DNA of 42,826 nucleotides from positions 1-42,826 of the forward strand of contig JACRCE010000094.1 of the NCBI GenBank assembly GCA_016213015.1, read 5' to 3'. A model generated the notes under the pieces. It had not been told where the DNA came from and searched no databases. It worked only from the letters and a program-made list of their open reading frames with translations. This document shows positions 15,943 through 42,826 of this stretch, one piece after another. The translations under genes and the position numbers were made by a program. The stretch comes from Deltaproteobacteria bacterium (GTDB lineage Bacteria; Desulfobacterota; GWC2-55-46). Positions within the stretch are counted from its first letter, which is position 1; the number at the start of each line of letters is the position of its first letter.

Positions 15943-17040
15943 ATGGCGGGAAAAAACAAACTCTGCCTCAGCGTCATAACCGCCGATGTCGGGGGCTTCA
16001 TAGGCAACGTCAGTTCTCACCCTGAAGTTCTCGACACGGCAAAGGAGACGCTTGATACGGCGAAAGGAAAGGCCGGGCTCCGCGACTTTCACGTGCTCCG
16101 TTGCGGGGACGACCTTGCCCTTGTGATAACGCACGAGGCCGGGTGCGAGAGCCGTGCATTGCATGAGATTGCATGGAAGACCTTTATATCATGCAGGGAC
16201 GTGGCAATCGGCTTGAAGCTCTACGGCACCGGGCACGGACTTTCAAAGGATGGCTTTACAGGCACTTTATTGGGCATGGGCCCAGGCGTAGCCGAGATGG
16301 AGTTTGTTGAACGGGAGAGCGAATCCATAGTCATCTTTCTCATCAACAAAGCGGCAACCGGGCCGTTCAACCTGCCGTTTTACAAGATTTTCGCGGACCC
16401 GTTCAACACCGCCGGGCTTATACTCGACAAGGAGATGTCGGACGGCTTTTCCTTCAGGATACGCGACTTAGAGAGCGGCAAGGAGATAAGGCTGTCGGCG
16501 CCGGGCAAACTCCATGAAATACTTGCCCTTGCCGGGTCAGGGGCAAGGTACGTCATAACCGGCGTTGCGAAGAACTCGAACGGAGAGAATGCCGCATCGG
16601 TCTCGGCTCAGAAGATTGCCACTGGGGGAGGCGAGGCCAGCCATTCCGAGCCAACGGCGATAGTGAGATGTCAGGCCGGTTTCCCGACCGTCGGCGAGGT
16701 CATGGAGGCATTCGCCTTTCCGCATCTGGTAAGCGGGTGGTTGAGGGGCGCTCATAACGGCCCGCTCCTTCCTGTGCCGTTTTATGAGGCCAACCCGACG
16801 AGGTTCGACGGCCCGCCGAGGATCATAAGCGCCGGGTTTCAGATTGCGGACGGCAGGCTTTTGGGGCCGCACGACATGTTCGACGATCCGAGCTTTGACG
16901 AAACGAGACGGCTTTCAAACCAGATAACCGAATATATACGCAGGCACGGCCCGTTCGAGCCTCACAGACTGCCGGAAGACGCTCTGACAACGAGCAATCT
17001 TCCAGCGACGATTGAGGCCCTAAAGAATCAGTTCCAATAG
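15943..17040 (+). CDS. FBP aldolase/phosphatase (class V FBPase) homologue lacking catalytic residues
   Basis: The 365-residue protein matches the bifunctional fructose-1,6-bisphosphate aldolase/phosphatase of Archaea and deep-branching Bacteria along its whole length: N-terminal SVITADVGGFIG, the GDDLALVITH strand, ADPFNTAGLILD, AFAFPHLVSGWLRG, RFDGPPR and RRHGPFEPHRLP. Compared from memory with the Sulfolobus/Thermoproteus enzymes, most active-site residues are replaced. Schiff-base Lys232 is His234, Tyr229 is Glu231, metal ligands His18, Gln95, Asp132 and Asp233/234 are Asn22, His98, Asn135 and Ser235/Glu236, and the C-terminal Tyr is Thr350. Asp15 and Asp56/57 remain. It is therefore unlikely to be a normal gluconeogenic enzyme; a binding or regulatory role is possible. 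No strong ribosome site precedes the ATG beyond AAGGGG. Confidence 0.88.
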   Translation: MAGKNKLCLSVITADVGGFIGNVSSHPEVLDTAKETLDTAKGKAGLRDFHVLRCGDDLALVITHEAGCESRALHEIAWKTFISCRDVAIGLKLYGTGHGLSKDGFTGTLLGMGPGVAEMEFVERESESIVIFLINKAATGPFNLPFYKIFADPFNTAGLILDKEMSDGFSFRIRDLESGKEIRLSAPGKLHEILALAGSGARYVITGVAKNSNGENAASVSAQKIATGGGEASHSEPTAIVRCQAGFPTVGEVMEAFAFPHLVSGWLRGAHNGPLLPVPFYEANPTRFDGPPRIISAGFQIADGRLLGPHDMFDDPSFDETRRLSNQITEYIRRHGPFEPHRLPEDALTTSNLPATIEALKNQFQ

Positions 17041-32323: not shown

Positions 32324-35026
32324 TCATCTTTTCCCTGAACGCTTGGACCTGAGCGCGGACTGCGCCGCGGCAAGCCGCGCAATCGGCACCCTGAACGGCG
32401 AACAGGAGACGTAGTCGAAGTTGTTTACGTGGCAAAAGGCGACTGAAGCCGGGTCCCCGCCGTGCTCCCCGCAGATGCCTATCTTAAGGCCGGGCTTGGC
32501 CCTTCTCCCCTTTTCAATGGCCATCTTTATAAGAAGCCCGACCCCGTCCTGATCGAGCGACTGAAATGGGTCGGCCTTTAGTATGCCGGTCTTTTTCTCG
32601 TCAACGTAGTCGGGCAGGAACCTGCCGGCGTCGTCCCGCGACATGCCGAGCGTCATCTGCGTCAGGTCATTGGTTCCGAAAGAGAAAAAGTCCGCAACCG
32701 TCGCGATCCGGTCGGCGAGGAGCGCGGCCCTCGGGACCTCTATCATGGTGCCGAGCAGATATTTTATCTTTTCCCCGCATTCGTCCATGACGCCGGAGGC
32801 GATTGCCCTTGCCCTGTCCTCAAGTATGGAAAGCTCCTTTGCGTCGATGATGAGCGGAAGCATTATCTCAGGGGATACCTTTACGCCCTTTTTCCTGCAC
32901 TCGCAGGCCGCCTCGATGATAGCCCGTACCTGCATATCCAATATCTCAGGGTAGGTTATGCAAAGACGGCTCCCCCTGTGTCCAAGCATGGGGTTGGCTT
33001 CCGAGAGCCTCTCTATCCTTCTCTTCACCTGATGAAACGGCAGGCCAAGCCTCTGGGCAAGGCGCTTTTGCCCGTTTTCGTCGTGAGGAACGAACTCATG
33101 CAGAGGAGGGTCTATGAGCCTTATGGTTACGGGTTTTCCGTCCATTGCCCTGAATATGCCGACGAAGTCCTGACGCTGAAAGGGCAGTATCTCGTTAAGG
33201 GCGTTTTTCCTCGTCTCTTCGTCCTCGGAGACGATCATCCTCTGTATGGCGACCCTGCGCTCGTCCGTGTCGAAGAACATGTGCTCTGTCCTGCAAAGCC
33301 CTATGCCCTCCGCGCCCAGCCTCACCGCGTTCTCCGCGTCGTAAGGCGTGTCAACGTTGGTTCTCACCTTGAGCGCGCGCTCCGAGTCGGCCCACTTCAT
33401 CAGGGTCGTGTATGCGTCCGGGAGTTCCGGCTTTATGAGTTTAAGGCACGTCCTGAATACCTCGCCGGTTGAGCCGTTGAGCGTTATCTCGTCGCCTTCC
33501 TTCAGTATCGACTCGCCTACGGCCACGGTCTTTGCCTCGTAGTCTATAACAAGGTCTTCACAGCCCACCACACAGCACTTGCCCCAGCCCCTTGCCACGA
33601 CCGCGGCATGGGAGGTCTTGCCCCCGGTTGCCGTGAGTATGCCCCTTGCCGCGTGCATCCCGCCCACGTCCTCCGGGCTGGTCTCCTTACGGACGAGTAT
33701 CACCGATTTTCCCTGCTCAGTCTGTGCCTCCGCATCCTTTGCGTTGAATACTATCGCCCCGCATGCGGCGCCGGGAACCGCGTCTATGCCGGTCGCAAAG
33801 AGGTTTCTCTTCAGTTCGTCGGCCGGTATGTCCTTGTCTATTACCGGATAGAAAAGCCCCTCTATGTCCTTGTCCGTAATCCTTAGTATGGCCTCTTGTC
33901 TGGTTATGAGCCTCTCCTTGACCATGTCAACCGCGATACTAAAGGCCGCCATGGGGGAGCGCTTGCCTGTCCTGCACTGTAGGATGTAGAGCTTGCCGGT
34001 CTCAATGGTAAACTCTATGTCCTGCATCTCCTTGTAATGCTTTTCAAGCCTTGTCCGCACCTTGCAAAGCTGTTTATATATATCCGGCAGGATGCCTTCA
34101 AGGTCGTTTAAGTGGAGGGGCGTGCGGATACCGGCGACGACGTCCTCGCCCTGCGCGTTCATTAGGAGGTCTCCGTAGAACACGTTCTCTCCGGTATTCG
34201 GGTCCCGCGTGAAGCACACGCCCGTGCCTGATGAGTCCCCCATATTGCCGAAGACCATCTGCACGACGCTGACCGCTGTGCCCAAAAGTCCCTTTATCTT
34301 CTCAACGCGCCTGTACGTTACGGCCTTTTCGGCCATCCATGAGCCGATGACCGCGTCTATCGCGCCCCAGAGCTGGCCCCTCGAGTCCTGAGGAAAATCG
34401 CCTCCCGTATGCTCCCTGTACACCGCCTTGAGCCTTGGGATGAGCGCGAAAAGCTCCTCTTCGTTAACCTCGGTGTCAAGGACAAGCCCGCCGCGCTTGC
34501 CGAGCCTCGGGCGCGTACGCCTCTCCTTTATCTCGTCGAACTCGTCGTCGAACTTCCTCCTCGGCACGCCCATAGCCGTTGAGCCGTACATGAAGATGAA
34601 TCTCCTGTAGGCGTCGAGGGCGAATCTCCTGTTTGCCGTCTTCTTGGCAAGCCCCTCCACGGAACTGTCGTTAAGCCCGAGGTTTAAGATGGTCTCCATC
34701 ATGCCCGGCATACTGCGAGACGCGCCGGAACGCACGGACACGAGGAGCGGGTCATCGGAATCGCCAAGCCTCTTGCCCACCAGTTTTTCAAGCCTTACAA
34801 GGTTCTTTTCAACCTCAGCCTTGAAGCCGGGCGGGTATTTTCTGTTGTTTTTGTAGAAGTGATCGCATACCTCGGTAGTGCAGGTGAAGCCCGCCGGAAC
34901 CGGCAGGCCGATGTTGGTCATCTCGGCAAGGCCCGCGCCCTTGCCGCCCAAAAGCTCTTTCATGCTGCCTTTGCCCTCGGCCTTACCGTTGCCGAAAAAA
35001 TAGACGCTTCTTTTCGCCTTGGCCAT
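32324..35026 (-). CDS. ppdK: Pyruvate, phosphate dikinase
   Basis: This 900-residue enzyme interconverts pyruvate + ATP + Pi with PEP + AMP + PPi. The N-terminal ATP-grasp domain starts FFGNGKAEGKGSMKELLGGKGAGLAEM and has VSVRSGASRSMPGMMETILN. The swivelling domain carries the phospho-His in GGKTSHAAVVARGWGK. The C-terminal PEP/pyruvate TIM barrel includes GLCRTEHMFF, GTMIEVPRAAL and the catalytic Cys in YVSCSPFRVPIARLAAAQ. All key motifs are intact and the length is normal. The ATG at 35026 has GGAGGAG upstream; the frame open to 35146 is not used. In an organism with an FBPase-like protein it may serve gluconeogenesis or PPi-dependent glycolysis. Confidence 0.96.
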   Translation of the reverse strand: MAKAKRSVYFFGNGKAEGKGSMKELLGGKGAGLAEMTNIGLPVPAGFTCTTEVCDHFYKNNRKYPPGFKAEVEKNLVRLEKLVGKRLGDSDDPLLVSVRSGASRSMPGMMETILNLGLNDSSVEGLAKKTANRRFALDAYRRFIFMYGSTAMGVPRRKFDDEFDEIKERRTRPRLGKRGGLVLDTEVNEEELFALIPRLKAVYREHTGGDFPQDSRGQLWGAIDAVIGSWMAEKAVTYRRVEKIKGLLGTAVSVVQMVFGNMGDSSGTGVCFTRDPNTGENVFYGDLLMNAQGEDVVAGIRTPLHLNDLEGILPDIYKQLCKVRTRLEKHYKEMQDIEFTIETGKLYILQCRTGKRSPMAAFSIAVDMVKERLITRQEAILRITDKDIEGLFYPVIDKDIPADELKRNLFATGIDAVPGAACGAIVFNAKDAEAQTEQGKSVILVRKETSPEDVGGMHAARGILTATGGKTSHAAVVARGWGKCCVVGCEDLVIDYEAKTVAVGESILKEGDEITLNGSTGEVFRTCLKLIKPELPDAYTTLMKWADSERALKVRTNVDTPYDAENAVRLGAEGIGLCRTEHMFFDTDERRVAIQRMIVSEDEETRKNALNEILPFQRQDFVGIFRAMDGKPVTIRLIDPPLHEFVPHDENGQKRLAQRLGLPFHQVKRRIERLSEANPMLGHRGSRLCITYPEILDMQVRAIIEAACECRKKGVKVSPEIMLPLIIDAKELSILEDRARAIASGVMDECGEKIKYLLGTMIEVPRAALLADRIATVADFFSFGTNDLTQMTLGMSRDDAGRFLPDYVDEKKTGILKADPFQSLDQDGVGLLIKMAIEKGRRAKPGLKIGICGEHGGDPASVAFCHVNNFDYVSCSPFRVPIARLAAAQSALRSKRSGKR

Positions 35027-35050
35027 GCGAACTCCTCCACTGGGAAGTAT

Positions 35051-35078
35051 ATTGTAACCGTACAGCCGTAACCGGCAA
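35051..35078 (-). promoter_or_regulatory. Candidate ppdK promoter
   Basis: On the minus strand TTGCCG (35078-35073), a 16-base spacer and TACAAT (35056-35051) lie about 25 bases before the ppdK ATG. Confidence 0.45.
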
Positions 35079-35139
35079 CTCAGGAGACTAACAAAAAACG
35101 GACAAAAAGGCAAAGGGTAAATCAGCTTGACAACACGCC

Positions 35140-35169
35140 TTGACAACGACCATAGAAACCGCTTAAAAT
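35140..35169 (+). promoter_or_regulatory. Promoter of the hydrogenase-4-related operon
   Basis: TTGACA (35140-35145) is followed by TTAAAA after 17 bases (or TAAAAT after 18), ending about 60 bases before the first gene. A second TTGACA lies at 35127-35132. This would drive the six-gene complex. Confidence 0.5.
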
Positions 35170-35228: not shown

Positions 35229-37268
35229 ATGCCGTTCTTTTCGCCGTTGCCCCTGGCGTTCTCATCCATCGTCATCTTTCTTATGATGGCGGGTTTGGCG
35301 CTCCTCCTTCAAAACCGCCAGACCTTCCTCGTCAATATGGCGTTTTTCCTGTCAACGGTCTCATGCGGCATCGGCCTATATGCAGGGTTCGAGGCCGTGG
35401 CCTCCGGCTCCATGCAGACGATGATAATGCCTATCGGACTGCCTGACCTGCCTTTTTACATCAGGGTTGACGCGCTATCCGGTTTTTTTCTGTCGCTCGC
35501 GTCCCTGACCGGCCTCATGGTTTCCATATACTCGTTCGATTACGTGAAGGGCATCCTCAGCGCGCGCAAAGCTACGAAGCTCGTCGTGTTCTACTGCCTG
35601 TTCATGGCCGGGATGCTCCTCGTGCTCATATCAGACGACGCCTACTTTTTCATGTCCTCATGGGAGCTGATGGCGCTGTCCTCGTTCTTTCTCGTCTCGT
35701 TCGAGGACGAGTCCGCTGAAAACCGCAGGGCCGCCTTCCTATATATCCTCATAGCGCATATAGGCGCGGTGATGATACTGCTCTCTTTCGGCATATTGGC
35801 CGGTTTTGCCGCGGGGTTTGAAAACTTCATGGGATACAGGTTCTCGGCCATGCGCTCGGCTGAACCGGGCATGCTATGGGCGTCCATCGCCTTTTTTCTG
35901 GCCTTTTTCGGCTTTGCGTCAAAGGCGGGCGTGGTTCCGCTCCACGTGTGGCTCCCTGAGGCCCACCCTGCCGCGCCAAGCAACATATCCGCGCTCATGA
36001 GCGCGGTGATGCTCAAGATCGCAATATACGGCATCCTCAGAGTCTGCATGGACATAATCGGCGTACAGGTCTGGTGGTGGGGCGGGGTCGTGCTCGTTAT
36101 CGGCCTAATCACGGCCGTCATGGGCATACTCTACGCCCTCATGCAGGTGGACATCAAACGGGTGCTCGCCTATTCATCGGTCGAGCACGTCGGGATAATA
36201 ACCGTGGGCATCGGCCTTTCGATGATATTCACCTCCTTCGAACTGCGCATGCTCGCGGCGCTCGCCCTGACCGCCGCGCTCTATCATTGTCTGAGCCACT
36301 CGGTCTTCAAAAGCCTGCTGTTCATGGCCGCCGGAAGCGTCCTGCACTCAACCGGCGAGCGCAACATGGAAAGACTCGGCGGCCTGATACACAAACTGCC
36401 GTGGACGAGCGCCCTGTTCCTCGTGGGCGCGCTCTCCATCGCGGCCATGCCGTTGTTCGGCGGTTTTGTCTCGGAGTGGCTGACCTTTCAAGCCTTCCTG
36501 CTCTCCCCGGTACTGCCGAACGCGCTCTTAAAGATACTCTTTCCGCTTGGCGCGGCGCTCTTGGCCCTTACGGCGGCGCTCTCGGCCAGATGCTTTGTAA
36601 AGGTCTTTGCCGTTACGTTTTTAGGCCAGAGGAGAGCGGTTCCGACAACCGAAACTCACGAGGCGGGCATGTCCATGCGCCTCGCCATGTCCATTGCCGC
36701 AATATCAAGCCTTGCGCTCGGTCTATTCCCGTCTTTTGTCATTGATTGGATCGACACGGTCCCGCAAAGCCTCGTCAAAGGCCGGATAGCCTCGTCAGCC
36801 GGGGCGTTCGGGTGGATGTGGCTTACGCCGATCTCGGCGGAGAGGGCCTCATATTCCGCGCCTATCGTATTCATCGGCATCTTTGCCGCGGTTGCCGTTG
36901 CGTGGCTCGCCTTTCACGGCAAAAAAGCGGCTACAAGGAGAAGCGCGACATGGGACTGCGGCTTTGAAAAGATGACCCCGAGGATGCAGTACAACTCGAC
37001 CTCCTTCGCAATGCCCTTGAGACGGATATTCGGCTTCCTGTTCGTCGTCAGTGAGTCCGTAAGAACGTCCCATGCCCAACCGGGATCAGCTCCGCGCATC
37101 CGGTATTCGCTGAGGATAGAGGACAGGCTCTGGTACGTCTTCTATAAACCGTTTTCCGACGCGGCCTATTATCTTGCAAAGCAGGCCAACAGGCTCCAGC
37201 ACGGCAGGATGCAGATATACCTTTTATACTCCTTCATAACGCTCATAACACTGCTGGTGTTCGCATGA
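35229..37268 (+). CDS. Hydrogenase-4 subunit B-like antiporter subunit (HyfB/NuoL family)
   Basis: This 679-residue polytopic protein is a Mrp-antiporter/NuoL-type proton channel of a membrane respiratory complex. About 14-16 membrane helices are visible. The core carries FYIRVDALSGFF, SSWELMALSSFFLVSFEDES (with the conserved channel glutamate), the KAGVVPLHVWLPEAHPAAPS motif with key Lys, and DIKRVLAYSSVEHVGII. A long C-terminal part includes a soluble stretch (KKAATRRSATWDCGFEK) and a final helix, as in HyfB. It opens an operon of six genes; the stop overlaps the next ATG by four bases. Confidence 0.92.
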   Translation: MPFFSPLPLAFSSIVIFLMMAGLALLLQNRQTFLVNMAFFLSTVSCGIGLYAGFEAVASGSMQTMIMPIGLPDLPFYIRVDALSGFFLSLASLTGLMVSIYSFDYVKGILSARKATKLVVFYCLFMAGMLLVLISDDAYFFMSSWELMALSSFFLVSFEDESAENRRAAFLYILIAHIGAVMILLSFGILAGFAAGFENFMGYRFSAMRSAEPGMLWASIAFFLAFFGFASKAGVVPLHVWLPEAHPAAPSNISALMSAVMLKIAIYGILRVCMDIIGVQVWWWGGVVLVIGLITAVMGILYALMQVDIKRVLAYSSVEHVGIITVGIGLSMIFTSFELRMLAALALTAALYHCLSHSVFKSLLFMAAGSVLHSTGERNMERLGGLIHKLPWTSALFLVGALSIAAMPLFGGFVSEWLTFQAFLLSPVLPNALLKILFPLGAALLALTAALSARCFVKVFAVTFLGQRRAVPTTETHEAGMSMRLAMSIAAISSLALGLFPSFVIDWIDTVPQSLVKGRIASSAGAFGWMWLTPISAERASYSAPIVFIGIFAAVAVAWLAFHGKKAATRRSATWDCGFEKMTPRMQYNSTSFAMPLRRIFGFLFVVSESVRTSHAQPGSAPRIRYSLRIEDRLWYVFYKPFSDAAYYLAKQANRLQHGRMQIYLLYSFITLITLLVFA

Positions 37269-38215
37269 CGAATTCATCAAGTTCCATAATCGTCGAATGT
37301 CTTCAAGTGGCCACGGTGGTTTTTCTCGCGCCGCTCTTTACCGGCTGGGTGCGCCTCCTTAAATGCCGGGCGCAGGCAAGGACGAGCGCCGGTCTCCTGC
37401 AACCGTACAGGGACATATACAAACTCTTCTTCAAGGAAGTAGCGCTCGCTGAAAACGCCTCATGGATATTCAGGTTCACGCCGTACATGGTCTTCGGCGC
37501 AACCGTTATGGCCGGGGCAATAATACCGGTAATCTCGACACGGGCGCCGCTTTCGGCGACGGCGGACATCATCGCCCTTGTCGCCATATTCGCGCTTGCG
37601 CGTTTTTTCTCGGCCCTTGCCGGAATGGACGCGGGCACGGCCTTCGGAGGGATGGGCTCAAGCAGGGAGATGATGGTGGCCTCGCTGGCCGAACCGGCCA
37701 TGCTCATGAGCGTGTTCACCATATCGCTCGTCAACCGCTCGACCTCGCTCTCGCAGATGACGCACGTGATCGTAAACAGCCCGATCATGCTCAGACCGTC
37801 CCTTGCCTTCGCGCTTCTCGCCTTCGCGCTCATCGCCATCGCCGAGACCGGCAGGATACCGGTTGACAACCCTGCCACACACCTTGAGCTGACCATGATA
37901 CACGAGGCCATGTGCCTTGAATTCTCCGGGCGGCACCTTGCGCTCATCGAGTGGGCCAAGGGAATAAAACTGCTTCTTTTCGCGTCCCTCGGCATCGCGC
38001 TGTTCGCGCCATGGGGCATGGCAACCGGAGGTACGCTTCAATCGCTCGTTATTTCTTACGTTACCCTTACGGCCAAACTTGCCGTAATCGGCGTTGCCAT
38101 CGTGCTCATAGAAACAAGGCTTGCGAAGATGCGCATATTCCGGGTGCCGGAGTTCCTCGGCGCCGCGTTCTTACTGGCGACGCTCGGAATGTTGTCGTAC
38201 TTCATGCTGGAGTAG
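37265..38215 (+). CDS. Hydrogenase-4 subunit C-like membrane subunit (HyfC/NuoH family)
   Basis: This 316-residue protein with about eight membrane helices is related to NuoH/HycD, which anchors the catalytic arm and shapes the quinone or proton entry. Family features are LLKCRAQARTSAGLLQPYRD-like loop (GRxGP region variant), DAGTAFGGMGSSREMM, ALIAIAETGRIPVDNPATHLELTMIHEAM and EFSGRHLALIEWA. The glutamates of the quinone-side loop (AETGRIPVDNP, HLELTMIHE) are present. Confidence 0.92.
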   Translation: MTNSSSSIIVECLQVATVVFLAPLFTGWVRLLKCRAQARTSAGLLQPYRDIYKLFFKEVALAENASWIFRFTPYMVFGATVMAGAIIPVISTRAPLSATADIIALVAIFALARFFSALAGMDAGTAFGGMGSSREMMVASLAEPAMLMSVFTISLVNRSTSLSQMTHVIVNSPIMLRPSLAFALLAFALIAIAETGRIPVDNPATHLELTMIHEAMCLEFSGRHLALIEWAKGIKLLLFASLGIALFAPWGMATGGTLQSLVISYVTLTAKLAVIGVAIVLIETRLAKMRIFRVPEFLGAAFLLATLGMLSYFMLE

Positions 38216-38218
38216 AAT

Positions 38219-38884
38219 ATGTCCCATGAATTGGCGATAGAGATAAACAGCCTGCTTGCGGCGCTCATCCTGCTTACGTCCTTCGGCCTCCTTGTGCAAA
38301 GGAGGGTATACGGGCTTCTGCATATCTTCGCGTGGCAGGGGGTCTTTCTTTCCGTAAGCACGGCCATCGTCGGCTACAGCGCCGGACTTAATCATCTGTA
38401 CATATCGGCGGCCATGACGCTCGTCATCAAGGTCTTCGCGCTTCCGTACATCCTCTACGTCCTCATACATAAGCTCAGGATCAAAAAAGAGGTGGAGGAC
38501 ATGGTGAACATCCCGACGACCATGCTCATAGGCATCGCCGTCGTCATATTCTCGTATCATCTCACGGCCCCGATACGCGAGCTTTCGACCCTGATGACCC
38601 GCTCGACCCTTGCCGTGGCGCTCTCCACCGTGCTCCTCGGACTCCTGATGATGATAACCCGCAAGAAGGCCGTAACGCAGATCATCGGCTTCCTTGCCCT
38701 TGAAAACGGCCTTTTCTTCGCGGCCACAAGCGCAACTTACGGGATGCCGCTCGTGGTGGAGCTTGGCGTTGCCCTCGACATACTCATTGCCGCGTTCATA
38801 TTCGGCATGTTCTTCTTTCAGATACGCACGTCCTTCGACAGCCTGGACCTGAAGGAAATGGAAAAACTAAAGGATCTCGATTGA
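38219..38884 (+). CDS. Hydrogenase-4 subunit E-like membrane subunit (HyfE/NuoK-like)
   Basis: This 221-residue protein has about six membrane helices and a NuoK-like core (IIGFLALENGLFFAATSATYG) that holds the conserved membrane glutamate of this family. HyfE subunits are longer than NuoK (about 100 residues), as here. It starts 3 bases after the HyfC-like stop and ends 4 bases before the HyfF-like gene, so all are one transcript. Confidence 0.9.
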   Translation: MSHELAIEINSLLAALILLTSFGLLVQRRVYGLLHIFAWQGVFLSVSTAIVGYSAGLNHLYISAAMTLVIKVFALPYILYVLIHKLRIKKEVEDMVNIPTTMLIGIAVVIFSYHLTAPIRELSTLMTRSTLAVALSTVLLGLLMMITRKKAVTQIIGFLALENGLFFAATSATYGMPLVVELGVALDILIAAFIFGMFFFQIRTSFDSLDLKEMEKLKDLD

Positions 38885-38888
38885 CGCA

Positions 38889-40349
38889 ATGACCCTAATC
38901 GCGCTTCTCTCGATAAGCCTCGTATCAGCCGTTGTCCTCGCCTTCATCGGCGACAAGCGTTATGCGGCCGAGGTTAACATCCTCGGCGGGGCGGCCACGT
39001 TCGCCGTAAGTCTTCTCCTCGGCGCCGAGGTCTACATCTCCGGGCCTTTTGTCATTGCCAACGGATTTTTCTTCGTGGACGCGCTCAATGTATACCTTGC
39101 GGTTCTTACCGCATTCGTCTCCATGACCACCGCCATATTTTCAAGGCCATACATGCGCCACGAGCGCGAGATCGGCAGGGTCGGCAAGACGGCCATGCGC
39201 TTTTATCACGCGATGTATCAGCTCTTCATCTTCGCCATGCTCCTCGCCCTTCTTACCAACAACGTGGGCGTCCTGTGGATCTCGATGGAGTTGGCCACCC
39301 TTTCAACGGTCTTACTCGTCTCGCTCTACCGCACCCCTTCTTCCATAGAGGCCGCGTGGAAGTACTTCATCCTGTGCGGCGTCGGCATCGCTCAGGCGCT
39401 CTTCGGCACGGTTCTCCTCTACTTCGCCGCCGAGAAGGTCCTGGGCGAAGGCTCGGCCGCGCTTCAGTGGACCAACTTAAGTCGAGTTAGCGGACAACTC
39501 GAACCGACCGTGCTTTCCCTTGCCTTCATCTTTTTCATGATAGGCTATGGCACAAAGGTCGGCCTTGTTCCGCTCCATAACTGGCTCCCGGACGCCCACG
39601 CCGAGGGGCCTACGCCGATTTCGGCCGTGCTATCCGGCCTGCTTCTCAACATTGCGCTGTACGCGCTTGTTCGCTGTAAGGCGCTGGTTGACGGCGCAAC
39701 TCACGGCAACAAGGCGGGATATATAATGATGGCCTTCGGCATGGTCTCGCTCCTTGTCTCGGCCTTTTCACTCCTCAGGCAAAAGGACATCAAACGGATG
39801 TTCTCGTATTCTTCAATCGAGCACATGGGCATCGCCGCATTTGCGTTCGGACTCGGCGGAAGCGTGGCCACGTTCGGCGCGCTCCTTCACATGCTCGTGC
39901 ACTCGCTCACCAAGTCGGCCATATTCTTTACGGTCGGACACGCCTCTCAAATTTACGCAACCCAGCAGATGACGCGCATACGCGGGCTTATACGCGCCAA
40001 TGGGCCGGTGGGCTGGGGCCTTATGCTCGGCGTGGCCGCGATAACCGGGATGCCGCCGTTCGGCGTGTTCACGAGCGAATTTCTGATACTCACGGCAACT
40101 ATAAAAGACGCGCCCATCATGTCCCCTTTCTTTCTCCTCGGGCTTGCCGTGGCCTTTGCGGCGCTGTTCAAAAAGACCATGCCGATGGTCTTCGGCGAGG
40201 CCGGCGAATCGGCGCGTCTGTCCGCTCATTCAATCAAGGTCTCTGACAGTCCCGTCGTAATCCACATGCTGATAGTCCTGTCCCTCGGCCTGTATCTGCC
40301 GGTTTTTCTGAGCGACTGGTTTCATGCGGCAGTTCGCCTATTGAGATAA
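38889..40349 (+). CDS. Hydrogenase-4 subunit F-like antiporter subunit (HyfF/NuoN-M family)
   Basis: This 486-residue second Mrp/NuoM-type subunit has about 14 membrane helices. Conserved points are LWISMELATLSTVLLVSLYR (channel glutamate), GTKVGLVPLHNWLPDAHAEGPTPIS with key lysine and DIKRMFSYSSIEHMGIAAFAFG. It provides a second proton- or sodium-translocating half-channel. Two antiporter-like subunits (with the first gene) imply at least two ion routes. Confidence 0.93.
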   Translation: MTLIALLSISLVSAVVLAFIGDKRYAAEVNILGGAATFAVSLLLGAEVYISGPFVIANGFFFVDALNVYLAVLTAFVSMTTAIFSRPYMRHEREIGRVGKTAMRFYHAMYQLFIFAMLLALLTNNVGVLWISMELATLSTVLLVSLYRTPSSIEAAWKYFILCGVGIAQALFGTVLLYFAAEKVLGEGSAALQWTNLSRVSGQLEPTVLSLAFIFFMIGYGTKVGLVPLHNWLPDAHAEGPTPISAVLSGLLLNIALYALVRCKALVDGATHGNKAGYIMMAFGMVSLLVSAFSLLRQKDIKRMFSYSSIEHMGIAAFAFGLGGSVATFGALLHMLVHSLTKSAIFFTVGHASQIYATQQMTRIRGLIRANGPVGWGLMLGVAAITGMPPFGVFTSEFLILTATIKDAPIMSPFFLLGLAVAFAALFKKTMPMVFGEAGESARLSAHSIKVSDSPVVIHMLIVLSLGLYLPVFLSDWFHAAVRLLR

Positions 40350-40362
40350 GGAGTGATAGGAA

Positions 40363-41934
40363 ATGCCCTCTCTTTGCGATCTGTTGAACGATAGATTTTC
40401 CGCCATTGCGAAAAAGGTTTCCGGCGTGCTTCCCGCGTCAATTGCGCTTTACTCAACGCCGCCTGAACGCCTGCCTGAACTGGCCTCGGCGCTGAAGGCT
40501 GGAGGCGCAAGGCTCATGGCCGAGTGGGCCGTTGATGAAACGGCCTTTGGACGGGAGTTTGCCGTGTACCTTGCCTTCAACTCAGGCAAGGAGTTTGTGT
40601 TGTTAAAGGCGGACATCGCGGCGCAAAACCCGTCCTTTCCAAGCATCGCCGGAATCTATCCGGCGGCAAACAGGTTCGAGCGTCAAATAATGAGCCTGTT
40701 CGGCATTATCGCCCTTGGACACCCTGACCCAAGGCAATGGATCAAGCACGAGGACTGGCCAGAGGACGCCTTCCCTCTGCGAAAATCCTTTGACGCATCA
40801 AGGTATCTTGAACGCAGGGAAGCGACGTATGATTGGGTTCAGGCAACGGGCGACGGCGTGTACGAGATACCGGTGGGACCGGTACATGCCGGCATAATCG
40901 AGCCCGGGCACTTCAGGTTCCAGTCCGTCGGCGAGGACATCATAAACCTTGAGGAGCGCCTCGGGTACGTGCACAAGGGCATAGAAAAAAGGTTTGAGTC
41001 TTTACCCATCCTTTCGGCCTATAAACTTGCAGGCAGGGTTTCAGGCGATACAACGGTCGCCCACGCAATAGCATACTGTCAGGCGCTTGAGGCCGTTGGT
41101 CAGACTCAAATACCGCCCCGCGCCGCGTGGATACGCGCCGTGCTCCTTGAGCTTGAGCGCGTCGCGAACCATGTATCCGACATCGGCGCGATATGCAATG
41201 ACGCGGCCTTTACCTTCATGCTCTACCAGATGAGCCTGCTTAGGGAACGGATATTGAAGATAAGCGTGTCGATGTTCGGCCACAGGCTTATGATGGATTG
41301 CGTGATACCCGGCGGGGTAAACGCGGATATTATACCTTCCGCCGCTCAAACGATAATATCGGGGCTTGATTTCGTGTCCAACGAGTTTGAGCGGCTCATC
41401 GCGATCTATGAAGGCAACCCTTCGCTTGAAGACAGACTATACGGGGCGGGAATCCTCTCTCCGGCCATTGCAACCGAACTCGGCGTGGTCGGCTTCGTTG
41501 CGCGCGCAAGCGGGACGCCCCTTGACGCAAGGATTCAGATGCCTTTCGCGCCGTATGATACGATCGTGCCTGAAACCCCGCTGTTGCGCTCCGGCGACGT
41601 TCATGCCCGCGCATGGGTAAGAATACTGGAAGTGCGCGAGTCAATACGGTTGATCAGAGAGTTTTTACACGGCGTGCCGCAGGGTGCGTTGTCCGCCGTA
41701 TGCCGGATGCCGTTGCCGGGCGCATCCGGTTTTTCAACGGTCGAGGGCTGGCGCGGGGAGATAGTCTACTGGCTTCAGGCCGGAGATGACGGAACCATAA
41801 ACCGCTGCATGGTCAGGGACCCTTCAAGCGTGAACTGGGTTGCCCTTGAACATGCCATCAAAGGCAATATCGTTCCCGATTTTCCGCTGTGCAATAAGAG
41901 CTTCAATCAGTCGTACTCAGGCAACGATTTATAA
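40363..41934 (+). CDS. NiFe hydrogenase large-subunit-like protein without nickel ligands (HyfG/NuoCD-like, Ehr type)
   Basis: This 523-residue soluble subunit joins a NuoC-like domain (about 1-150, IYPAANRFERQIMSLFGI) to a NuoD/hydrogenase-large-subunit domain. In true [NiFe] enzymes nickel is held by an N-terminal R-x-C-x-x-C and a C-terminal DPCxxC. Here the first reads RVSGDTT (225-231) and the second DPSSVNW (486-492), so all four cysteines are absent. The rest of the family pattern is preserved: YVHKGIEKRFESL, PPRAAWIRAVLLELERVANHVSDIGA and the C-terminal GNIVPDFPLCNKSFNQSYSG. It therefore cannot be a hydrogenase and fits the energy-converting-hydrogenase-related (Ehr) complexes, whose electron donor and acceptor are unknown. 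GGAGTGATAGG lies before the start. Confidence 0.9.
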   Translation: MPSLCDLLNDRFSAIAKKVSGVLPASIALYSTPPERLPELASALKAGGARLMAEWAVDETAFGREFAVYLAFNSGKEFVLLKADIAAQNPSFPSIAGIYPAANRFERQIMSLFGIIALGHPDPRQWIKHEDWPEDAFPLRKSFDASRYLERREATYDWVQATGDGVYEIPVGPVHAGIIEPGHFRFQSVGEDIINLEERLGYVHKGIEKRFESLPILSAYKLAGRVSGDTTVAHAIAYCQALEAVGQTQIPPRAAWIRAVLLELERVANHVSDIGAICNDAAFTFMLYQMSLLRERILKISVSMFGHRLMMDCVIPGGVNADIIPSAAQTIISGLDFVSNEFERLIAIYEGNPSLEDRLYGAGILSPAIATELGVVGFVARASGTPLDARIQMPFAPYDTIVPETPLLRSGDVHARAWVRILEVRESIRLIREFLHGVPQGALSAVCRMPLPGASGFSTVEGWRGEIVYWLQAGDDGTINRCMVRDPSSVNWVALEHAIKGNIVPDFPLCNKSFNQSYSGNDL

Positions 41935-41945
41935 AGGTAAAAACA

Positions 41946-42473
41946 TTGTTCAGGATACTTCACCAGATATTCCGCACAGGCGTCGTAACCGAGCCGCTCG
42001 CCCCTGAGGAGGAAGGCAGGGTTACGCTCACGGGCAGGGCCGTTGAAGAGGCCGTGCTCAAACGCTTCAGCCGGAGCCTTACCATCCGTCTCGTTGACGC
42101 GGGTTCGTGCAACGGTTGCGAGCTTGAGATACAGGCGGTGAATAACCCCGTCTACGACTGCGAACGGTTCGGCATTCACTTCACGGCCTCGCCGCGCTTT
42201 GCGGACATGCTCCTCGTTACAGGGCCGGTTTCAAGAAACATGGAAAACGCATTAAAGCGTACCTTTGAAGCCATGCCCGCGCCGAAACTGGTCGTAGCGG
42301 TCGGGGATTGCGCTTATAACGGCGGCGTCTTCGGGCCGGGCTACGCGACCCGTGAATCGGTTGCCGACGTCTTACCGGTAGACGCATTCATCCACGGCTG
42401 TCCGCCGACCCCGAACGCGATACTTACCGGCATACTAAAGGCGGTGCGGCGCGCGCCCCTATCTATTCGATAA
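41946..42473 (+). CDS. NiFe hydrogenase small-subunit-like/NuoB-like Fe-S subunit (HyfI family)
   Basis: This 175-residue subunit holds the [4Fe-4S] cluster nearest the catalytic site. Its ligands are Cys55, Cys58 (AGSCNGCELEI), Cys122 (GDCAYNGGVF) and Cys152 (HGCPPTPNA), all present. The start is TTG at 41946, 11 bases after the large-subunit stop. The protein ends soon after the family's last helix (ILTGILKAVRRA). No ferredoxin-type subunit (HyfA/HyfH) follows in the window, so electron entry is not encoded here or lies elsewhere. Confidence 0.88.
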   Translation: MFRILHQIFRTGVVTEPLAPEEEGRVTLTGRAVEEAVLKRFSRSLTIRLVDAGSCNGCELEIQAVNNPVYDCERFGIHFTASPRFADMLLVTGPVSRNMENALKRTFEAMPAPKLVVAVGDCAYNGGVFGPGYATRESVADVLPVDAFIHGCPPTPNAILTGILKAVRRAPLSIR

Positions 42474-42685: not shown

Positions 42686-42826
42686 GGAATCTCTGATTAA
42701 TTCGCCGACCCGTCATTGCGAGCAACGCGAAGCAATCTCGTCTTCAAGGAAATCAACAACTTAAAGATTGCTTCGCCGCAAAAGCGCGGCTCGCAATGAC
42801 AGAAAAGAGAATTAATCAGACCTTCC
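42686..42826. repeat. Complete MITE/REP-like element, inverted, at window end
   Basis: This is the reverse-complement orientation of the element at 28001-28141, nearly identical along 141 bp, with ends GGAATCTCTGATTAATTCG and GAATTAATCAGACCTTCC. The window stops at its last base. Confidence 0.9.

Follow-up and report, generated by a model that had tools for sequence, protein, structure and literature searches.

We describe a six-gene operon at positions 35229-42473 (forward strand) of contig JACRCE010000094.1, from a Deltaproteobacteria bacterium of the Desulfobacterota (assembly GCA_016213015.1; 2.27 Mb, 98.7% complete). The contig, 42,826 nucleotides long, was analysed in its entirety and is called the window here; it ends 353 bases 3' of the operon. 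The locus is a newly found, intact member of an already known family, the energy-converting-hydrogenase-related (Ehr) complexes. We put at about 0.6 the probability that it encodes a redox-driven ion pump of Ehr type that descends from group-4 hydrogenases and has a strictly conserved new pocket in place of the NiFe site.

An earlier, sequence-only reading of this DNA had named homologues of HyfB, C, E, F, G and I in this order, with full antiporter motifs and all four Fe-S cysteines in the small subunit. All of this was borne out by six intact, collinear open reading frames (ORFs) that match the expected families:

35229-37268, forward strand: HyfB-like antiporter subunit, 679 residues (NCBIfam NF005086, 773.8 bits for a cut-off of 667; E146, K232, K310, H357, K361 and E416 invariant in 110 orthologues)
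37265-38215, forward strand: HyfC/NuoH-like membrane anchor, 316 residues (PF00146, 127.7 bits; eight Glu invariant in 100 orthologues)
38219-38884, forward strand: HyfE-like membrane subunit, 221 residues (NF008556, 90 bits, under the equivalog cut-off of 136; relatives 76-88% identical)
38889-40349, forward strand: HyfF-like antiporter subunit, 486 residues (NF005045, 732 bits for a cut-off of 543; E134, K223, H230, K302, H334, H338, K342 and E397 invariant)
40363-41934, forward strand: HyfG/HycE-like large subunit without nickel ligands, a fusion of NuoC-NuoD type, 523 residues (nearest solved chain HycE 7z0s_E, 235 bits)
41946-42473, forward strand: HyfI/NuoB-like small subunit with one [4Fe-4S] site, 175 residues (nearest MbhJ and HycG)

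Loss of the nickel site and conservation of a new pocket

Alignment with HycE showed that all four nickel-ligand cysteines of the large subunit are gone, with Ser227, Thr230, Ser517 and Gly520 in their place. The sequence-only reading had located the lost motifs at RVSGDTT and DPSSVNW; it was right about the first, while the true second site is NQSYSG, 29 residues downstream of DPSSVNW and within the last ten residues of the protein:

41035-41055, forward strand: RVSGDTT, residues 225-231, position of the first nickel CxxC motif (HycE RVCGICG)
41818-41838, forward strand: DPSSVNW, residues 486-492, not a nickel position (HycE AATYANW)
41866-41931, forward strand: C-terminal tail NIVPDFPLCNKSFNQSYSGNDL, residues 502-523, nearly invariant and with no cleavable extension; its SFNQSYSGND (residues 513-522) pairs with HycE SLDPCYSCTD, which holds the second nickel motif, DPCYSC

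Among 113 orthologous large subunits from several phyla, the four positions are occupied by Ser (105, with Ala in 6 and Cys in 2), Ser or Thr (111), Ser (105, with Asn in 6) and Gly (112), and a cysteine is thus found at just one of them, in 2 of the 113. The residues that took over are themselves under tight constraint. E180, H175, G228, D229, N511, K512, Y518 and G520 are invariant or absent from a single sequence, the motif R-x-[SA]-G-D-[ST] and the tail NKSxNxSYSGxDL are almost invariant, and the last 23 residues are near-identical in the large subunits of 20 relatives. The former NiFe pocket ranks among the best-conserved regions of the protein, and these motifs can serve as a signature by which one Ehr clade is recognised.

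The sequence-only reading had named three findings that would undo it, and we looked for each of them. Replacement nickel ligands were rejected, as no other cysteine is more than 70% conserved in the 113 large subunits. So was a sequencing error, since the same residues occur in 20 orthologous operons of related genomes. A second true large subunit was rejected too: the source genome has no other group-4 large subunit, its remaining homologues being the NuoD of a full complex I and one HydA/ShyA-like hydrogenase.

In a first structure model, based on 21 close sequences, the pocket was not resolved; a deeper alignment of 69 sequences resolved most of it and gave a mean predicted local distance difference test (pLDDT) score of 89.5. 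The modelled fold is that of HycE and NuoD: the best match was HycE (7z0s_E; Z 47.0, root-mean-square deviation 2.1 over 515 residues), followed by NuoD chains at Z ~43.

A conserved cluster and membrane arm

The small subunit retains its four Fe-S cysteines, as CNGC (C55, C58), C122 and C152, and these are kept in 107-108 of 108 orthologues. In the membrane arm the charged channel residues of B, C and F (in B and F the antiporter Glu, Lys and His) are likewise invariant across orthologues. This conservation argues against a redox-dead remnant, and electron transfer and ion movement are apparently both under selection, with the H2 chemistry lost. From its sequence, then, the complex looks redox-active and ion-pumping.

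Electron entry and maturation genes are missing throughout the clade

True plasmid hydrogenase operons, our positive control, contain HycF/HyfH, HycH, HycI, a HycB-type protein and Hyp genes. Searches with proteins from such operons found no HycH, HycI or HypD in the 113 Ehr loci, and a single distant HyfH-like protein (L135) in their flanks. The sequence-only reading had considered the electron entry point missing from the operon; none is encoded there, and with a HyfH-type protein in 1 of 113 loci this is better described as a constant trait of the clade, a subunit that was never encoded. The operon has no NADH module and no NuoI either, and no constant operon partner that could act as electron donor was seen among 20 relatives or 80 other loci.

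Distribution and relationships

An orthologue was found in 27 of 58 related genomes (one merely a fragment; the complete ones 58-66% identical), and the order B-C-E-F-G-I in all 20 operons fetched from relatives; in two of these a contig end cuts B short or removes it. Scanning one genome per species gave at least 578 coding loci. The best 80, which were examined, come from Nitrospirota, Pseudomonadota, Acidobacteriota, Rokuibacteriota and others, and most of them have the same gene order. Ehr operons also occur on plasmids of rhizobia, Azospirillum, Cupriavidus, Burkholderia and Rhodococcus. Ehr had already been reported in nitrifiers, mycobacteria and Geobacter; to these we add rhizobia, iron oxidisers, methanotrophs and many others. 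One locus, in Geobacter sp. UBA698 (L073), has two adjacent Ehr-like gene clusters with an additional HyfB-like gene, and a relative of an HTH/PTS-EIIA-like gene found upstream of some Nitrospirota Ehr operons.

The window protein and its relatives were joined, in a quick tree, by Proteobacteria, Rhodococcus/Rokuibacteriota and Nitrospira Ehr (Shimodaira-Hasegawa-like approximate likelihood-ratio test 95), in a clade separate from HycE/HyfG, from a second nickel-free clade and from NuoD; the deep branching order is unsure because long branches were flagged. Filing the complex as Ehr-type is therefore supported: it has group-4 homology, no CxxC motifs, antiporter-like membrane subunits, and a clade shared with the Nitrospira moscoviensis and Rhodococcus proteins.

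Nitrospira Ehr (N. moscoviensis and comammox) shares with the window its gene set, its clade and the lack of CxxC motifs, but its large subunit is only ~45% identical and N. moscoviensis falls outside the window's sub-clade. The Rhodococcus plasmid Ehr also has six subunits and no ferredoxin subunit (large subunit 40% identical), but its genes run I-B-C-E-F-G. This is also the gene order of M. tuberculosis Rv0082-Rv0087, which was compared with the window through the Rhodococcus sequence. The mycobacterial operon has been tied to Rv0081, a hypoxia-linked regulator (PMC6901956). E. coli formate hydrogenlyase (HycE/HycG) and hydrogenase-4 share the large-subunit fold, the single small-subunit cluster and a related membrane arm; unlike them, the operon described here lacks nickel cysteines, ferredoxin subunits of HycB/HycF type, HycH, the HycI peptidase, Hyp genes and a C-terminal extension. 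Complex I (NuoB, NuoCD, NuoH, NuoL/M/N) is akin in ancestry and arrangement, whereas the operon has no NuoEFG or NuoI, and its cluster site is of CxxC rather than tandem-Cys type.

The second nickel-free clade (L160, L161, L166) was met on plasmids of Burkholderia cenocepacia, Caballeronia and Mycobacterium branderi, with large subunits 32-33% identical to that of the window. Its members differ in gene order (C-E-F-G-I-B) and in the motifs of the pocket (ERVSGVDT, EASFGLTISG), and those of B. cenocepacia and Caballeronia (L160, L161) have a longer small subunit that includes a HyfH-like domain. One copy lies on a conjugative plasmid of B. cenocepacia, and DUF190 and universal stress genes are found near some members.

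The literature agrees with the sequence-only reading that no substrate is established: Ehr without NiFe ligands and of unknown function has been described in comammox Nitrospira (PMC10284858), Nitrospirales (PMC12342949) and ammonia-oxidising archaea (PMC10432482).

A redox-driven ion pump as the preferred reading

An ion-pumping complex with a non-hydrogen electron couple, as first suggested from the sequence, fits this evidence and is retained here as a proposal. We infer its carrier, substrate site, ion and direction of electron flow as follows. The likeliest carrier is a soluble, one-electron protein of ferredoxin or flavodoxin-like type, which would dock directly on the small subunit and swap electrons with the one [4Fe-4S] cluster there. 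That cluster would in turn swap electrons with a non-hydrogen substrate in the large-subunit pocket, putatively lined by E180, R225-G228-D229-S/T230 and the tail N511-K512-S513-N515-Y518-G520, and the resulting charge change would drive H+ or Na+ through C, E, F and B. Several points weigh against this proposal. The literature searched offered no biochemistry for the B-C-E-F-G-I clade; electron delivery has no ready explanation, given a single cluster and the lack of a ferredoxin subunit; the pocket could yet accept quinone in another pose; and the structure model is a single chain without small subunit or cofactors, with low confidence in its last four residues.

Ehr and SulP anion transporters

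The genes next to Ehr vary for the most part. The commonest neighbour family in a sample of Ehr-flanking proteins was that of the SulP anion transporters. SulP adjoins Ehr at 11 of 40 loci (Proteobacteria, Nitrospira and others), where ~0.26 genes would be expected; counting related methanotrophs once, six lineages remain (Poisson p ~3e-7). In Thiobacillus the operon is flanked by two SulP genes and a LysR regulator, and in Accumulibacter (L105, 12456-21304) three antiporter genes and DabA follow it on the same strand.

Within the window's own relatives the two systems tend to exclude each other. SulP of any kind is found in 3 of 28 Ehr-bearing and 16 of 31 Ehr-free genomes (p 0.0009), and full-length SulP (E<=1e-70) in the window's family in 0/21 versus 6/9 (p 0.00014) or, by lineage, 0/11 versus 3/3 (Fisher p 0.003), values that are only indicative because the cut-off was set after the table had been seen, the genomes are related and five families were tried. 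A clean reciprocal swap between close relatives is seen in G005 and G027, which belong to a single genus and whose DNA is ~90% identical at both loci. At the first site G005, G014 and G024 all have SulP, and G027 cleanly lacks it; at a second, unlinked site G027 carries the whole Ehr operon, which is cleanly absent from G005 and G014. Reciprocal occurrence, swap and adjacency are new here, in a family that is itself already known, and the literature searched offered no such lead. A common need met by either Ehr or SulP, such as one for bicarbonate or another anion, would account both for their being neighbours in one group and for their excluding each other in another.

These observations hint at a shared role in the supply of anions or inorganic carbon, and we treat them as a concrete, falsifiable lead rather than a finding. 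In such a scheme the complex would supply or energise uptake of inorganic carbon (or of another SulP anion), its redox or ion-motive force being coupled to CO2 hydration or to bicarbonate or anion import, with SulP as the alternative solution. Cyanobacterial NDH-1MS and DAB are precedents in which CO2 hydration is coupled to complex-I-type proteins (PMC13144422), and the methanotroph SulP beside Ehr has BicA (6ki1) as its best solved match. However, the other Ehr-adjacent SulP proteins are of several kinds, some resembling SULTR/sulfate carriers; the Gallionella one adjoins a molybdo-oxidoreductase cluster; most Ehr loci have no such neighbour, those of Burkholderiales having spermidine-synthase, HPr and stress genes instead; and the three Ehr-bearing relatives with SulP have other types of it. 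Mycobacteria and rhizobia, which carry Ehr, have no obvious reason to concentrate CO2; the pocket showed no zinc or carbonic-anhydrase motif; and the operon has no DabA, which is also lacking in the source genome and in 58 of the 59 genomes (the window's and its relatives'). We found no paper linking Ehr to carbon uptake in the literature searched. On balance we hold this explanation to be unlikely. In its bolder form, the whole B-C-E-F-G-I clade would be complex-I-type machinery with which autotrophs and soil bacteria take up inorganic carbon, or another SulP anion, in an energised manner, with SulP as the alternative and the former NiFe pocket as an anion or CO2 site; this we consider a long shot.

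Sulfate reduction of DsrAB type was rejected as the reason for SulP, dsrA being almost wholly absent from the 59 genomes. Among the same genomes no correlation of Ehr with cytochrome oxidase, NiFe hydrogenase or dsrA was evident by eye, and the genes around SulP in SulP-bearing relatives were uninformative.

Other readings of the pocket

Alternatively, the complex might be a stripped complex I that has kept quinone binding in its pocket and works as a ferredoxin- or flavodoxin:quinone oxidoreductase. Its large subunit is nearly as close in fold to NuoD as to HycE, and its NuoH-type subunit would form a quinone tunnel. The NuoD residues that hold the quinone head, a His and a Tyr (H38 and Y87 in Thermus), are nevertheless gone: the His position is I179 in the window protein, and the Tyr position is G228, with Gly in 113/113 orthologues. 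The genome, moreover, already has a complete complex I. We judge a quinone reductase improbable.

A formate-linked complex (FDH-Ehr) or cryptic hydrogenlyase has been proposed for Riflemargulisbacteria, and Geobacter Ehr was more abundant on formate (PMC6349859, PMC7894505). But molybdopterin oxidoreductase genes flank just 2 of 113 Ehr loci (L058, L103), the nickel ligands are absent, and Ehr expression in N. moscoviensis showed no H2-driven rise (PMC12342949), making this reading very improbable. Least credible of all is a redox-dead, Mrp-like antiporter keeping its other subunits merely as a scaffold, which would suit the lack of an electron-entry subunit and the lost metal site but not the near-absolute retention of four cluster cysteines and pocket across several phyla.

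Genomic surroundings

Pyruvate phosphate dikinase (32324-35146) adjoins the Ehr operon divergently, and a fructose-bisphosphate aldolase/phosphatase lies 18 kb away (15943-17040). No gene consistently found 3' of the operon was seen in relatives. At the contig end, positions 42714-42801 hold a palindromic repeat (TCATTGCGAGCAACGCGAAGCAATCTC...GATTGCTTCGCCGC...CGCAATGAC), which may be the reason why the contig stops there; a related genus has dozens of copies of a ~135-base dispersed repeat. Elsewhere in the source genome, complex I has two consecutive NuoM genes plus NuoL and NuoN (a '2M' complex I; contig C93, L045, 9688-16407), with NuoA-G-like ORFs on a separate contig (L043). Several relatives, G056 and G057 among them, have large subunits of NiFeSe-type hydrogenases with in-frame TGA codons, possibly encoding selenocysteine.

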